Below, piece after piece: positions 112 to 7,462 of a stretch of DNA of 64,000 nucleotides. The position numbers and the translations under genes are program-made. A model generated the notes under the pieces. That model was given only the letters and a program-made list of their open reading frames with translations, was not told where the DNA came from and did not search any database. Source of the stretch: Clostridiales bacterium (GTDB lineage: Bacteria; Bacillota; Clostridia; Christensenellales; DUVY01); assembly GCA_012840805.1 (NCBI GenBank), contig DUVY01000038.1:1-64000 (forward strand). Direction: 5' to 3'. Position 1 is the stretch's first letter, and every line of letters starts with the position of its first letter.

Positions 112-1158
112 ATGACCAAAAAAATTAATATAGGCGGCGTGGTAATTGGCGGCGGCTACCCTATAGCCATACAGTCAATGACCAACACAAAGACTTCGGA
201 TATTGACAGAACGGTTTTGCAGATTCAAAATCTCGCATTGGCGGGCTGTCATATCGCGCGAATGGCTGTAACTGATCAAAAAGACGCGCAATCCATAAAA
301 ACCATAAAACAAAAAGTTAAAATGCCGCTTGTGGCGGATATTCAATTTGATTACAGGCTTGCGATAGCTTCTATTGAAAATGGCATAGACAAAATCCGCA
401 TTAATCCGGGCAATATAGGCAATAAAGAAAAAGTAAAAGCGATAATAGATAGCGCCAAGGCGCACAAGGTTCCTATAAGAGTGGGCGTCAACAGCGGTTC
501 AATAGAAAAAGAGTTGTTACGAGAATATGGCAGAACGGCGCAAGCTTTGGCGCAAAGCGCTCTAAAGAGCGTCAGTCTTTTGGAAAGTTTTGGTTTTTAT
601 GACATTGTAGTATCCGTAAAGTCTTCCGAAGTCAAGACAATGATAGACGCTTGCAGGATAATTAACAAAAGCTGTCAATATCCGCAGCACCTAGGAGTGA
701 CGGAAGCGGGGCTTTTTGAGAGCGCGATTATAAAATCCGCAATCGGAATAGGCTCTTTGCTAATAGACAATATAGGGGATACCATTCGCGTTTCGGTTAC
801 CGGCGACCCCGTTGACGAAATAAAAGCCGCAAAATTAATATTAAGATATTCAGGCAAAGACAAAAACTTTGTGGAAATCGTTTCTTGCCCAACATGCGCT
901 AGATGTAATGTTGATTTGTATAACTTAGCGACTCAAGCCCAAGAAAGACTTAGTCATATTGCCAAACCCGTAAAAATCGCTATAATGGGATGCGCGGTCA
1001 ACGGTCCGGGCGAAGCCAAGGGCGCGGATTTTGGCATTACAGGGGGCAACGGCAAAGGTCTTATTTTTGAAAAAGGCAAATTAATCAAAACGGTGAATGA
1101 AAACGACCTAATTGACGAGTTGGTCAAAAAAGTAGAAGAGTTCGCTCAAAATCTTTAA
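112..1158 (+). CDS. ispG: 4-hydroxy-3-methylbut-2-enyl diphosphate synthase (flavodoxin type)
   Basis: IspG makes HMBDP from methylerythritol cyclodiphosphate in the MEP isoprenoid pathway and uses a 4Fe-4S cluster. The 348-residue protein is the usual bacterial length: a TIM barrel followed by a reductase-like domain. Cluster ligands are visible as SCPTCARC near residue 258 and MGCAVNGPGE near residue 294, with the conserved Glu of NGPGE. The start is the ATG at 112, because an ATG at 104 reaches a stop after two codons. Only 9 bases separate it from the preceding stop, so it is cotranscribed with rseP. ispA and dxs of the same pathway lie about 23-27 kb further on. Confidence 0.96.
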   Translation: MTKKINIGGVVIGGGYPIAIQSMTNTKTSDIDRTVLQIQNLALAGCHIARMAVTDQKDAQSIKTIKQKVKMPLVADIQFDYRLAIASIENGIDKIRINPGNIGNKEKVKAIIDSAKAHKVPIRVGVNSGSIEKELLREYGRTAQALAQSALKSVSLLESFGFYDIVVSVKSSEVKTMIDACRIINKSCQYPQHLGVTEAGLFESAIIKSAIGIGSLLIDNIGDTIRVSVTGDPVDEIKAAKLILRYSGKDKNFVEIVSCPTCARCNVDLYNLATQAQERLSHIAKPVKIAIMGCAVNGPGEAKGADFGITGGNGKGLIFEKGKLIKTVNENDLIDELVKKVEEFAQNL

Positions 1159-1193: not shown

Positions 1194-2726
1194 TTGGATA
1201 AACTTATAGAAGAAATTATTAAGATTAATCCTGCTTTTAAATATTTAAGGCTAAACACGCTGACATATTTTGCGGTGAGCGGTCATTGCAAAATAGAATT
1301 TTTATATCCCGATGAAGAGCCGTTTTTGACAAACGCGAAAAAATCTTTCGCTCAAATAAGAAAAATCGCAAGACAACTTACAGGTATAGAAACATATTGC
1401 GAATTTCATAAGGCTAACGCTTCCATCGAAAATGTGCTTTTGTCCGTTCAAACATTAGTTAAATCAGAGCTTAATATTAATAATTTTTTGTTAAAAAATA
1501 TTGAAATTCAAAACGGCAAGCCCAAAAAAGTCATAGTTAATATTGAAGAATTATATTATGATTACGCTTTGACAAAGCAGCTTGATAAACTTCTTGAAGA
1601 AAAGCTATCGGACACATATTGTGCAGATTTTGATGTTCAATTAACCAAGATTGATTCTAAAGTTGATTTGGAAGAAATTCTAAAGACCGAGCCTATAAAA
1701 GTCGTTAAAAAAATCAACAAAAGGCTTATACATCCGATAAGCGTTGACCACTTGATTGGAAAAAAAATAACCGAGCCCGCGATTTACATAAAAGATCTCA
1801 ATCTTTATTACGAGCAAGATGTGATTATTTGCGGCGTAATTAAAGGCCTGAAAAGAGCCACCTACAAATCCAAAAAAAATCCCGAAAGCGATAAAGAAAA
1901 AGTTTATTATAAATTTAGCTTAGAAGATTTTACGGGTCTAGTCAATTGCGTTTATTTTGCCTATAGTTCGTCCGTTCAAAAAGCTGATACGCTAAGGGAC
2001 GGGGCTGAGATAATACTGCAAGGCAAAGTCAAGCAGGGCAAGAATATGCTAGAAGTTATCGCGCGTTCGATAAGCTATTGCGAAATACCTAAAGATCTTG
2101 TTGAGATTAAGCATCGCAACCCTGTTCCTGAAAAATACGAATTAATATTTCCCGAAGATATAAAAATAACCGAACAGGCAAACTTTCTTATCAAAGACGA
2201 AATATCCGAACATATCAAAAAAAATATATATGTGGTATTTGACCTAGAAACCACAGGTATCGGCGAAAACGACCGCATAACAGAAATAGCGGCCGTAAAG
2301 ATAATAGACGGCAAAATTTGTCAATTATTTACCACGCTTATAAATCCAAATATGAAAATACCATCCGATGTCACAAAACTTACAGGCATTACTAACGAGA
2401 TGGTATCTATGAGTCCGACATTTGAACAAATCGCTGGGGATTTTTATAAGTTTTGCCACAACGCTATTTTGGTTGGGCATAATATAACTGATTTTGATTT
2501 GCCTTTTTTAAGTCGTTATTCTGACATAACGCACTATTACTATGACGAGCACAAAGTTGAGGATACGCTGCATATAGCGCAAGATAAATTAAAAGGCAAA
2601 ATATCTAATTTTAAGCTTTCAACAATTGCCAAATATTTTAATATTAATAATGTCATGGCGCATAGAGCGCAATTTGACGCTTTGACAACCGCCAAGGTCT
2701 TTTTAGAGCTTTCCAAACTGCCATAA
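1194..2726 (+). CDS. PolC-derived protein: N-terminal and OB domains plus DEDDh 3'-5' exonuclease, no polymerase
   Basis: The 510-residue product starts at TTG 1194 behind a GAGGG ribosome site. Residues about 1-190 resemble the PolC N-terminal domain and about 190-300 its OB fold. About 345-510 form a DnaQ-type exonuclease with FDLETTG (Asp/Glu near 350-352), GHNITDFD near 427 and the His/Asp of HRAQFDAL near 489-494. In normal PolC (about 1400 residues) the exonuclease sits inside a PHP domain and is followed by the polymerase core. Here the PHP segment that should separate OB and exonuclease is missing, and the protein ends straight after the exonuclease. The position between ispG and rimP is the standard polC locus. 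It probably has 3'-5' exonuclease activity on DNA or RNA; a partner polymerase cannot be seen here. Confidence 0.85.
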   Translation: MDKLIEEIIKINPAFKYLRLNTLTYFAVSGHCKIEFLYPDEEPFLTNAKKSFAQIRKIARQLTGIETYCEFHKANASIENVLLSVQTLVKSELNINNFLLKNIEIQNGKPKKVIVNIEELYYDYALTKQLDKLLEEKLSDTYCADFDVQLTKIDSKVDLEEILKTEPIKVVKKINKRLIHPISVDHLIGKKITEPAIYIKDLNLYYEQDVIICGVIKGLKRATYKSKKNPESDKEKVYYKFSLEDFTGLVNCVYFAYSSSVQKADTLRDGAEIILQGKVKQGKNMLEVIARSISYCEIPKDLVEIKHRNPVPEKYELIFPEDIKITEQANFLIKDEISEHIKKNIYVVFDLETTGIGENDRITEIAAVKIIDGKICQLFTTLINPNMKIPSDVTKLTGITNEMVSMSPTFEQIAGDFYKFCHNAILVGHNITDFDLPFLSRYSDITHYYYDEHKVEDTLHIAQDKLKGKISNFKLSTIAKYFNINNVMAHRAQFDALTTAKVFLELSKLP

Positions 2727-2843: not shown

Positions 2844-3305
2844 ATGGATATTACGACTAAGGTCCAAAACGCCATTGCTAAGACCATTGAAGATCTAGGT
2901 TATGAGCTTGTGGAAGTGACTTACAAATATCAGCATAAGGCATGGCAACTGACTGTTTTTATTCACAAGACCGAGGGAATAGCTTTGTCTGATTGCGAAA
3001 AAGTCCATTACGCTATAGACGGAATTTTGGACGAACTTGACCCAACCAACGGCGCGCCCTATAATCTTAATGTTTCGTCGCTTGGATTGGACAGACCGAT
3101 GACTACCGATAAAGATTATAACCGTAATCTTAACAAAGAAGTAGAAGTCAATCTAAAAAACCCTATTGACAAAAAAAATGTCATAGAAGGATTTCTAAAA
3201 GGCTTTGACGAACAGTCTGTTTTGGTTGAGGAATTAAAAACAAAAAAAGAATACAAGCTTGAAAGAGATAACATCAAGCTTATGACATTATTAATAAAGT
3301 TTTGA
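2844..3305 (+). CDS. rimP: Ribosome maturation factor RimP
   Basis: RimP helps mature the 30S subunit. The 153-residue length fits the family: an N-terminal alpha/beta domain with the typical LGYELVEV and DCEKV segments, then a C-terminal SH3-like domain containing the NVSSLGLDRP motif region and a VEEL strand. The start ATG has GAGGGG 8 bases upstream. It is the first gene of the rimP-nusA-infB operon, with 19 bases to nusA. Confidence 0.95.
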   Translation: MDITTKVQNAIAKTIEDLGYELVEVTYKYQHKAWQLTVFIHKTEGIALSDCEKVHYAIDGILDELDPTNGAPYNLNVSSLGLDRPMTTDKDYNRNLNKEVEVNLKNPIDKKNVIEGFLKGFDEQSVLVEELKTKKEYKLERDNIKLMTLLIKF

Positions 3306-3324: not shown

Positions 3325-4449
3325 ATGATCAACAAAGATTTCTTTCTGGCGCTAGATGAGTTGGAAGCCAGCAAAAAGATAAAAAAAGAAGCCTTTTTGG
3401 AAGCGTTAGAGAGCGCTTTGGTTTCGGCATACAAAAGACATTACGGCGAAGCCAACTCTATTCAAGTTAAGCTAAATCCCGCGCGTAACACTATCAGGAT
3501 TTTCGCTTATAAGACAGTGGTAGAAAATGTAATCAACAAAGACAAAGAGGTGTCTTTGGAAGAAGCGCGACAAATAAAAAAGACCGCCAAAATAGGCGAT
3601 ATAATAAGCAAAGAAATAACGCCCAAGGAATTTGGGCGCATAGCGGCCCAAACCGCGAAGCAAGTCGTTACCCAAAAGCTAAGGGATATGGAGACACAAA
3701 TAGCTTATGAAGAGCTTGCTGAAAAAGAAGACGAATTGACGGTATGCGTAATAAGGCGAATTGAGGGTAAAAATGTTTATGTTGATCTAGGGAAATTAGA
3801 AGCTGTTATGCTGCCGTCAGACCAAATACCCGATGAAAGATATAATGTCAATGACAAAATCAAAGTATATGTAAAAAAGGTCAAAGTTGGTCCAAAAGGC
3901 CCGCAGATTATGGTGTCACGTTCTTGCGAAGGCTTTGTAAAAAGATTGTTTGAGCAAGAAGTGCCCGAAATAGCGGCGGGCTTGGTAGTAATAAAAAACA
4001 TTGTCCGCGAAGCTGGATACCGCACAAAAATAGCGGTGTACTCCGAGGATTCTTCTATCGACCCTGTCGGCGCTTGCGTGGGCAATAGGGGAATGCGAAT
4101 TAATACTATTGTCGCCGAATTAAACGGCGAAAAAATTGATGTTATACCTTGGTGCTCGGATACATTAGAATACATCGCTAGAGCCCTAAGCCCCGCAAAA
4201 GTTTTGATGGTGCAAGTCAATGACGAGGACCGCACCGCCAAAGTAATTGTTCCCGACGATAAGTTGTCTTTGGCGATCGGAAAAAGAGGACAGAACGCTC
4301 GGCTTGCCGTAAGACTTACAGGTTGGAAGATTGATGTAAAATCTTTGAGCGCTAGTCAAAACATGGAAGAGTTTAAAGAAATAGAGGAGCATATACCCGA
4401 AGAAGATTTTGAGTTAGAAGACTTTAAGGCGGATTTGGGAGAATTGTAA
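3325..4449 (+). CDS. nusA: Transcription termination/antitermination factor NusA
   Basis: NusA binds RNA polymerase and nascent RNA and modulates pausing, termination and antitermination. The 374 residues hold an N-terminal polymerase-binding domain, an S1 domain (about 130-205, with VYVDLGKLEA) and two KH domains. The first KH domain carries DPVGACVGNRGMRI and the second LAIGKRGQNARLA. A short acidic tail ends the protein and there are no C-terminal AR repeats, as usual in Firmicutes. AAGGAG precedes the ATG. The stop lies 2 bases before rnpM. Confidence 0.97.
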   Translation: MINKDFFLALDELEASKKIKKEAFLEALESALVSAYKRHYGEANSIQVKLNPARNTIRIFAYKTVVENVINKDKEVSLEEARQIKKTAKIGDIISKEITPKEFGRIAAQTAKQVVTQKLRDMETQIAYEELAEKEDELTVCVIRRIEGKNVYVDLGKLEAVMLPSDQIPDERYNVNDKIKVYVKKVKVGPKGPQIMVSRSCEGFVKRLFEQEVPEIAAGLVVIKNIVREAGYRTKIAVYSEDSSIDPVGACVGNRGMRINTIVAELNGEKIDVIPWCSDTLEYIARALSPAKVLMVQVNDEDRTAKVIVPDDKLSLAIGKRGQNARLAVRLTGWKIDVKSLSASQNMEEFKEIEEHIPEEDFELEDFKADLGEL

Positions 4450-4718: not shown

Positions 4719-5031
4719 CACATATATTAGATTCGCTATAAAAAGCCGAAAAATAATACACGGCTTAGACAAGATAAAATTACGGACTAAACAGATAAAG
4801 ATCATTATAGCTGACAAGACATTGTCCGATAACTCTTTGGAAAAAACCAAAATATTAAGCGATAGATTTAGAATACCTTTAATATTAAGCGAGGATGACT
4901 TGAATCATATATTAAACACTATTAATTGCAAGATTATAGGCATAACCGACGAGAGTTTGTCTAAGGCGATTTTGGACAATCTCGGCAACGGTTATTATTT
5001 GGCGGAGGGAGAATTAAATGGCAGAAATTAA
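4699..5031 (+). CDS. ylxQ: L7Ae/L30e-family RNA-binding protein YlxQ
   Basis: This 110-residue protein sits at the conserved ylxQ position between rnpM and infB and overlaps both neighbours. It has the alternating alpha/beta pattern of the L7Ae fold, with an early basic helix, a KIIIADKT strand and a later CKIIGITDESL strand-helix. The sequence is rather divergent: the usual glycine-rich RNA-contact loop is weak and replaced by HGLDKIKLRTKQ. Family members bind kink-turn RNAs. An OLE RNA, known elsewhere to carry a kink-turn bound by an L7Ae-family protein, is encoded 20 kb downstream, but a link is only a guess. Confidence 0.8.
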   Translation: MNKNKIDTYIRFAIKSRKIIHGLDKIKLRTKQIKIIIADKTLSDNSLEKTKILSDRFRIPLILSEDDLNHILNTINCKIIGITDESLSKAILDNLGNGYYLAEGELNGRN

Positions 5032-7462
5032 AAAAACAGAAGAAAGCGTTGATAAGATAAAGTTGCTCGCAAGTTTAAAAGAAGAGAAAAACTTGCCCAA
5101 ATTATTTAATGTTCTAAGAGAACAAAAAAAGCGGCTTGATCTTATAGCGCGCGCTTTAGACGATATTAACCGCAAAAAAGAGGAACAAGCTCTAGCCGAA
5201 ATGCTAGCGCAACAGCGCGAGCAAGAAGAGCTTTTAGCTCAGCAAGAATCTATAAAAGAACAAGATATAAAAGCCGATACGCAGACTGTTTCGCCTGAAA
5301 AAATTGACGAGCGTCAGCAAGCCGGTGAAGCGACCCAAAAACAAGAAGCTGTTGCCCACACAAAAGAACAAAAACAGGCAAAACCGCTCAAGCAAAAAGA
5401 ACAACCAAAAGCCAAAACAAGACAGGAAAAACCTCAAGAAACCAAAGCCCAAATTCCTGCCGACAAGCCTAGCTTAGTAGATGCAAAACCAAGCGCGCCT
5501 GTGGCGCCTGTGTCTATTTCTTCGCCGACCAAACAAAAAAGCCATGACAAAAAAGACAAAAAATTTGAAGAGAAAAAAAGCATGAACAAGCGCACTTTAA
5601 TAAGGCGCGGCTTTATTGACGATAGATTTGATGACGACGATTATAGTCCTAGACATAGAAAACCTAAGGCTAAGAAAACGCCCAAAAAACAAATTACTCC
5701 TATCAAGATAGAAAAGGCGGTTATTACCACCGATAACTTAACGGTCAAAATGCTGTCCGAAAAAATTGGCGTTCCCGCCCAAGATATACTCAAAAAACTT
5801 ATGATTTTGGGCGTTATGACCACTATAAACGGAGTAGTTGACTTTGATACTATGGAATTGGTCGCCGATGAGTTTGGCGTTAAACTAGAAAAGAAAATAG
5901 AAAAAACCAAAGAAGAAGTATTATCCGAATCCGTTTTGGAAGAAGATAATCCTGAAGATTTGGTAGAACGCCCCGCCATAGTAACGGTTATGGGCCATGT
6001 GGATCACGGCAAGACATCGCTTCTTGACGCCATAAGAAAAACCAATGTCATAGAAGGCGAGGCAGGGGGCATTACTCAACATATAGGCGCTTATACTGTC
6101 AATGTAAGGGACAAGAAGATTACCTTTATTGATACGCCGGGTCACGAGGCGTTTACCGCGATGCGCGCGCGCGGCGCGAAGGTAACGGATATCGCGATAA
6201 TAGTTGTCGCGGTTGACGACGGCGTAATGCCTCAAACAGCTGAGGCGATTAACCACGCAAAAGCGGCAAATGTTCCCATAATAATCGCTATCAACAAAAT
6301 AGACAAACCAAATACCAATCCACAAAGGATATTAGAGCAATTAACCGCGCATGAAGTGCTTTGCGAGGCGTGGGGCGGCGATTCTCCCGCTGTAGAGATT
6401 TCGGCCAAAACGGGCAAAAACATTGATAAACTTTTAGACACGATTTTGGATGTTGCCGAACTTCACGAATTTAAGGCAAATCCCAACAGAAAAGGATACG
6501 GAACGATAATTGAAGCCAAGCTAGACAAATCTAGAGGTCCTGTCGCCAATATCATAGTCCAAAATGGAACATTAAGAGTGGGCGACGCAATTGTTTCGGG
6601 CGTTACTTACGGTCATGTGCGGGCAATGCAAGACGACAAGGGCAGAAACATAAAAGAAGCAGGTCCTTCTATGCCCGTATCAGTTTTGGGCTTTTCCGAA
6701 GTGCCCGAGGCGGGAGAGCATATCTATGTTGTAGAAGACGAAAAACTCGCGAAACAAGTTGTATCAGAAAGAATTACCAAGCAAAGAACAGCCGAAAGCG
6801 CTGTAAGCAATATTGTCACTTTGAGCGATGTGTTTAACAAGATAAGCGAAGGTAAGATGAAAGACCTCAACTTAATTATAAAAGCCGATGTTCAAGGCTC
6901 TGTTGAAGCTTTGAAAGAGTCTTTGAGCAAATTAAGCAATGAAGAGGTTAAGGTCAATACTATTCATTGCGGAGTGGGCGCGGTCAAAAAGACCGATGTT
7001 ATGCTTGCAGAAGCGTCCAACGCGATAATTATAGGCTTTAATGTGCGCGCCGATGCCGAAAGCAAACAATTAGCCGAGAGCTCGGGCGTTGATATAAGAT
7101 ATTATCGTATAATATACGACGCGATTGACGATATCAACGCGGCTATTAAAGGAATGCTTACCCCTAAGTTTGAAGAAATTGTCAATGGTCAATGCGAAGT
7201 GCGCAACGTATTTAAGATTACGGGCGCGGGCATAGTAGCGGGTTGTTATGTTACCAGCGGCAAGATATTGCGAAACAGCAATGTAAGAGTATTAAGAGAT
7301 AATACCGTTGTTTATGACAGCACGATCGGCTCTTTAAAGCGAATTAAAGACGACGTCAAAGAAGTGGCTACGGGTTATGAATGCGGCGTTACTATCAGCG
7401 GTTTTTCCGACTTTAAGGTTGGAGATGTTTTGGAATCATACACTTTGGAGAAGATAGAATAA
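5018..7462 (+). CDS. infB: Translation initiation factor IF-2
   Basis: IF-2 is the GTPase that delivers initiator tRNA to the 30S subunit. The 814-residue protein starts with a charged, Lys/Glu/Gln-rich flexible region (about 1-230). An IF2N domain follows (about 235-290) and then the G domain from about residue 318: G1 GHVDHGKT, G2 GGITQHIG, G3 DTPGHEAF, G4 NKID and G5 SAKTG. The beta-barrel, C1 and C2 domains are complete to the C terminus. The start ATG follows GGAGGG and overlaps the ylxQ end by 14 bases. rbfA follows with no gap. Confidence 0.98.

Follow-up and report, generated by a model that had tools for sequence, protein, structure and literature searches.

Domain organization of a short PolC form

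What does a polC gene do once it encodes no polymerase, and which enzyme then copies the chromosome? The question is raised by the window analysed here, a stretch of 64,000 nucleotides from a member of the Christensenellales, in which the polC place is occupied by a gene for a protein of 510 amino acids. In the rest of this order and of its class, PolC is as a rule full length. In the window protein, Pfam recognizes an OB domain at residues 210-293 and an RNase_T exonuclease at residues 347-503, and neither PHP nor polymerase domains. The C-family polymerase core (PF07733 and the finger domain) is absent from this protein as well as from the other short forms scanned. The top NCBIfam match is PolC, across the exonuclease stretch, and the domains stand in the PolC order of N-terminal domain (NTD), OB and DEDDh exonuclease (Table 1). 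Against the solved structure of PolC 9qpc, a profile made from 17 orthologues matches in collinear fashion, positions 5-295 falling on PolC 30-345 (NTD and OB) and positions 339-502 on PolC 440-604 (exonuclease), and HMM-HMM comparison shows the NTD to be homologous to those of full PolCs of the same order. An AlphaFold2 model (window protein plus one relative) has a pLDDT of 38.7 and is set aside here except for its predicted secondary structure, which over residues 1-153 runs helix-strand-strand-helix-strand, twice.

The OB and exonuclease domains are separated by 43 residues as compared with 94 in PolC 9qpc, which indicates that the N-terminal piece of the PHP domain is missing. In full PolCs, the segment at this place is that N-terminal PHP part (VELHLHTQMS...ITDHG...). 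It is gone from the aligned short forms, in which a linker of about 43 residues stands instead, and no PHP part follows their exonuclease. The window polypeptide ends about 7 residues past the exonuclease domain and does not have the C-terminal clamp motif of PolC, QLSLF. Pfam, NCBIfam, the 9qpc alignment and hhalign thus agree with the initial annotation of the locus, which had described an NTD-OB-exonuclease protein at the polC place with neither PHP nor polymerase and had argued that more than a 3' truncation was involved.

Table 1. Features of the polC locus, by position in the window (aa, residues of the 510-aa protein)
Feature	Position	Strand	Evidence
ispG, upstream neighbour conserved for polC and the short form alike	112..1158	+	PF04551; synteny
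PolC-derived stand-alone NTD-OB-exonuclease gene, 510 aa, TTG start	1194..2726	+	ORF, Pfam, NCBIfam, synteny, 9qpc alignment
PolC-type N-terminal domain (NTD), aa 1-185	1194..1748	+	hhalign against full PolC NTDs 98%, E 1.1e-12; 9qpc alignment
OB domain, aa ~195-298	1776..2087	+	Pfam PF01336; collinear with PolC 9qpc and 3f2b
Linker in place of the PolC PHP N-terminal piece, aa 301-343	2094..2222	+	Short forms aligned with full PolCs; column counts
QANFL, pentapeptide resembling a clamp-binding motif, aa 328-332	2175..2189	+	Q328 invariant in 17 aligned orthologues
DEDDh 3'-5' exonuclease domain, aa 344-508, D350 E352 D435 H490 D495 intact	2223..2717	+	PF00929 E 2e-28; catalytic columns
rimP, conserved downstream neighbour	2844..3305	+	PF02576/PF17384; synteny
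nusA, downstream of rimP	3325-4449		
infB, downstream of nusA	5018-7462		

Conservation and distribution of the short form

Most of the loci fetched have the order ispG-short form-rimP-nusA-infB, to the extent that the contig continues and the adjoining genes were detected, and in other families a full PolC lies at the same ispG-rimP place. Since the orthologues terminate at the same point and rimP comes next in other families too, neither a frameshift nor a read-through accounts for the short frame. Homologues in relatives running on into a normal PolC, which the initial annotation had named as the outcome that would overturn it, do not occur inside the clade; full PolC is found only in more distant families of the order. 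We sampled 200 genomes of the order, taking counts from the matches listed. The short form, an open frame with OB and exonuclease that is mostly 500-600 amino acids long, is present in at least 96 of them, spread over many families, and at least 41 have the exonuclease inside a frame of PolC size; the rest include some with other exonucleases or with no match. Two frames differ in length, one of 714 amino acids (G118) that is extended only by upstream open frame and one that is cut short (G117). Outside the order, no relative spanning the full length turned up in searches of 391 genomes from the class and 249 from the phylum.

One might suspect a PolC fragment in decay, or an artefact of assembly, given that the gene is a truncated form of a known one and that the active site is dead in some lineages. 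We give this explanation almost no weight, as length and ends are similar in the 96 genomes among the matches listed, the place is the same wherever the neighbours were read, and a newly acquired motif is conserved (see below). The orthologue of a member of the same genus is 72% identical, and one pair of congeners yields a dN of 0.109, a dS of 1.6 and a dN/dS of about 0.07, the mark of purifying selection. An assembly artefact in particular is ruled out by the same short form at the same locus in relatives.

Some loci deviate from this pattern. One genome (G030, L072, family f30) has at the polC place a 466-aa version with an intact exonuclease and without a recognizable OB alignment or clamp motif. 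In two others (G012 and G040; L191 and L192; family f13), ispG is followed by a gene other than PolC, and three PF07733 pieces together with only a weak exonuclease match suggest a relocated PolC without exonuclease.

Polymerase content of the genomes

PF07733 matches DnaE once and PolC twice, and at least three pieces are expected in a genome with both. Among the matches listed, three or more were found in 38 of the 41 full-PolC genomes as against none of the 96 short-form genomes, of which 86 have one piece, eight have two and two have none. No full PolC was found among the matches listed for these 96, and each has one DnaE except the two in which none was detected. In the genome of the window, the single PF07733 polymerase is a complete DnaE1-type enzyme that scores above the NCBIfam cut-off. 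This DnaE is the only replicative polymerase found in the assembly, which is 94% complete, and the genome thus has the DnaE1-only content of a single DnaE1-type alpha subunit without PolC. The check proposed in the initial annotation, a search for a full PolC, an exonuclease-less PolC or DnaE only, accordingly returned the last.

These counts bear on the idea that PolC has been split, with its polymerase half encoded elsewhere, which the initial annotation had raised beside a repurposed exonuclease. The only C-family polymerase of the window's genome is a complete DnaE1, and the extra matches in the eight two-match genomes are of three sorts. In G087 a DnaE is divided between contigs, in G064 and G084 a thumb insert interrupts the DnaE match, and in G096, G127, G136, G177 and G187 a complete DnaE is accompanied by a DnaE-like fragment of 280-370 amino acids. 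With a second polymerase or a PolC half elsewhere ruled out by the PF07733 content of the genomes examined, we regard a split PolC as extremely improbable; of the two original interpretations, only the repurposed exonuclease stands.

The five DnaE-like fragments (L212, L213, L215, L216 and L211 in the order of genomes given above; families f3, f24 and f32) resemble the palm region, with the catalytic PDxDxD stretch replaced (for example by MPFSFFV in G096), and possibly represent a pseudo-polymerase conserved across genera. No such fragment was found in the window's own genome. Another genome (G085, L207, family f17) has a second, divergent DnaE-like polymerase in an 802-aa open frame, about 25% identical to chromosomal DnaEs and perhaps phage-borne or foreign DNA.

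DnaE1 and the descent of the short form

The PHP metal site of DnaE1 is complete in PolC-less genomes as in full-PolC ones, one full-PolC genome differing at one extra position. An inactive DnaE PHP as the reason for keeping the exonuclease is thereby ruled out. The intact site also means that PHP proofreading could still operate in PolC-less genomes, and DnaE1 may proofread for itself, the PolC-derived exonuclease being redundant. The thumb segment of DnaE measures 59-62 amino acids in 22 full-PolC genomes versus 61-90 in 29 PolC-less genomes; variable thumb insertions of up to 30 residues are seen in the DnaE of the window's genome (L041:1918-5502) and in other DnaEs of the clade. In Escherichia coli, epsilon is wedged between the clamp and the thumb, with its clamp motif just beside the catalytic domain (PMC4703070). 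A longer thumb fits an epsilon-like placement of the short form and is suggestive, though the two features are not independently correlated because the thumb change is a single event on the tree.

In a DnaE tree of these 51 genomes, a single branch with an SH-aLRT support of 100 separates the 22 with full PolC from the 29 without, a distribution that takes one change. Given this single partition, PolC was most likely dismantled once, in the common ancestor of a large clade within the order. Family f17 is nested within the PolC-less clade. Absence of the gene from this family was ruled out by inspection of the ispG-rimP interval, which holds a diverged copy with a dead exonuclease at the same place.

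A putative clamp-binding motif in the linker

Mean identity in the linker is 23%, and within it 58 of 71 proteins share a pentapeptide of the form Qxx[LMIF][FLVY] at one aligned position; the other 13 do not have it. Leaving out the divergent 466-aa version, 54 of the 61 proteins with an intact active site have it; the expectation for the motif anywhere in shuffled linkers is 8.7%. Invariant columns number 24 in a 17-row alignment and include Q328. Examples include QLDLF (G053), QFSLF (G095), QTELF (G091) and QDDLF (G142), the third position being mostly N, D or S, and in the window's QANFL the final two residues are reversed relative to the consensus LF. The pentapeptide matches the bacterial clamp-binding consensus, given in two reports as QL[S/D]LF or QxxLF (PMC3919608, PMC12309361), and is predicted to bind the clamp. 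Most full PolCs of the order carry such a motif at the extreme C-terminus, in the part that the short form has lost. Most simply, the original clamp tether was lost and another was later acquired afresh.

Conservation and loss of the exonuclease site

Of the 71 proteins, 62 have the complete set of five DEDDh residues, and the exonuclease is the best-conserved domain, with a mean pairwise identity of 44% versus 17-27% for the others. Such conservation speaks against a mainly structural protein, that is, a clamp or clamp-loader adaptor that stabilizes DnaE1 on DNA and in which the exonuclease is secondary. We consider such a protein improbable, despite the nine dead sites and the finding that E. 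coli epsilon strengthens the contact between polymerase and clamp (PMC4703070). The gene was kept after loss of catalytic residues in family f17, in two genera of family f19 (g21 and g85) and in genus g83 of family f32. As distinct families are involved, there were at least three separate losses. Where the flanking genes were read, in f17 and G069, the dead-site copies lie at the usual locus, and a motif-like peptide persists in those of g21 and g83. In the f17 copies (L190, L193, L194, L196), the active site is fully degenerate; they lie after ispG and, where rimP was found, before it. Retention of a protein whose exonuclease is dead points to a structural role as well, and by analogy with epsilon, which bridges polymerase and clamp, the short form probably has one in addition.

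A reassignment of the exonuclease to DNA repair or another clamp-dependent task, such as end processing or mismatch repair, would take it out of the replicase altogether. DnaE1 has its own intact PHP proofreading site, repair enzymes carry clamp motifs too (PMC12309361), and several lineages have dispensed with catalysis. Even so, we think such a reassignment unlikely: the PolC NTD and OB domain are retained in nearly all lineages examined, the clostridial protein that normally bears this exonuclease is a replicase, the sampled clade has kept the short form and lost PolC, and the 510-aa protein is the sole RNase_T-family exonuclease in the window's genome.

Comparison with known replicases

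The short form shares with PolC its genomic place, the NTD-OB-exonuclease order and homologous domains; it differs in having no PHP, palm, fingers, HhH or C-terminal clamp motif and in its new motif between the OB and exonuclease domains. E. coli DnaQ (epsilon) is likewise a separate DEDDh exonuclease with a clamp motif by the catalytic domain, in a cell where DnaE1 is the only replicase. The window protein and 62 of the 71 orthologues are, in the same way, separate polypeptides with an intact DEDDh site, and in the 58 proteins with a motif it adjoins the catalytic domain on the N-terminal side, whereas the epsilon motif comes after that domain. In contrast to epsilon, the short form is nearest to the PolC exonuclease in sequence, carries the PolC NTD and OB domain, and has no C-terminal tail of the kind that binds the DnaE PHP domain. 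It is epsilon-like in its predicted working, falls outside the epsilon family by sequence and is no longer a PolC polymerase. In Bacillus subtilis, DnaE recruits PolC and the primer end becomes exposed to the PolC exonuclease, which corrects DnaE errors in trans (PMC5627055), as we propose for the short form. Bacillus subtilis has a full PolC and a DnaE3 with a defective PHP, whereas the short-form genomes have no PolC polymerase and a DnaE1 with an intact PHP.

Published polymerase sets comprise DnaE1 only, PolC with DnaE1, and PolC with DnaE3 (PMC3919608, PMC12926913), and the earlier survey, of 2013, lists both Clostridia that have DnaE1 alone and clostridial PolCs that lack the exonuclease (PMC3919608). 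The DnaE1-only and PolC-DnaE1 sets and the exonuclease-less clostridial PolCs have in common with our clade, variously, DnaE1 as the only polymerase, membership of the Clostridia and a modular PolC. A stand-alone PolC exonuclease is not described in the accessible text of either survey. The 2013 survey discarded fragments lacking an intact polymerase site, so the short form would have been removed, and the 2026 survey (PMC12926913) is based on complete genomes. The open-access literature searched held nothing relevant on a split, truncated or stand-alone PolC.

A probable proofreader derived from PolC

In our judgement the short form is quite likely a stand-alone, epsilon-like proofreader derived from PolC, which would be tethered to the clamp and act in trans for DnaE1. 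Comparison of the domains shows that PolC lost its PHP and polymerase domains, most likely in the ancestor of the clade, and along with them the C-terminal clamp motif; gene content shows DnaE1 as the only replicative polymerase left in the genomes examined. The NTD-OB-exonuclease remnant would then have gained the linker motif observed just before the exonuclease, through which it is predicted to hold on to the clamp. Sitting on the sliding clamp beside DnaE1, it could remove mispaired 3' ends in trans, in the way that epsilon serves DnaE in E. coli. The PolC NTD is related to domain V of tau, and a contact with the clamp loader has been proposed for it in PolC (PMC3919608); the PolC-type NTD may therefore dock the remnant to tau as a second anchor. 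Three or more lineages have since lost the active site and retained the protein, probably in a structural role. Points against this reading are the intact PHP site of DnaE1, the nine dead active sites, the 13 proteins without the motif and the reversed ending of the window's QANFL. Cells of this large group of uncultured Clostridia thus probably copy their DNA with DnaE and use the remnant of PolC as a detachable proofreader.

We lean towards regarding this arrangement as a fourth kind of bacterial replicase, in which DnaE1 alone is served by a clamp-tethered proofreader carved from PolC: a convergent counterpart of epsilon that would have arisen a single time, when the polymerase was lost and a clamp motif gained, and later have become a catalytically dead accessory in at least three lineages. 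If this is true, it adds a fourth state to DnaE1, PolC with DnaE1 and PolC with DnaE3, one in which a two-polymerase replisome has collapsed to a single polymerase and retained the PolC proofreader. It bears on the respective jobs of PolC and DnaE1 in Clostridia, as DnaE1 evidently replicates the whole genome in the PolC-less clade, and it provides a natural experiment on the parts of PolC that proofreading in trans requires. Ibezapolstat and other PolC inhibitors are also predicted to have no target in bacteria of this clade.
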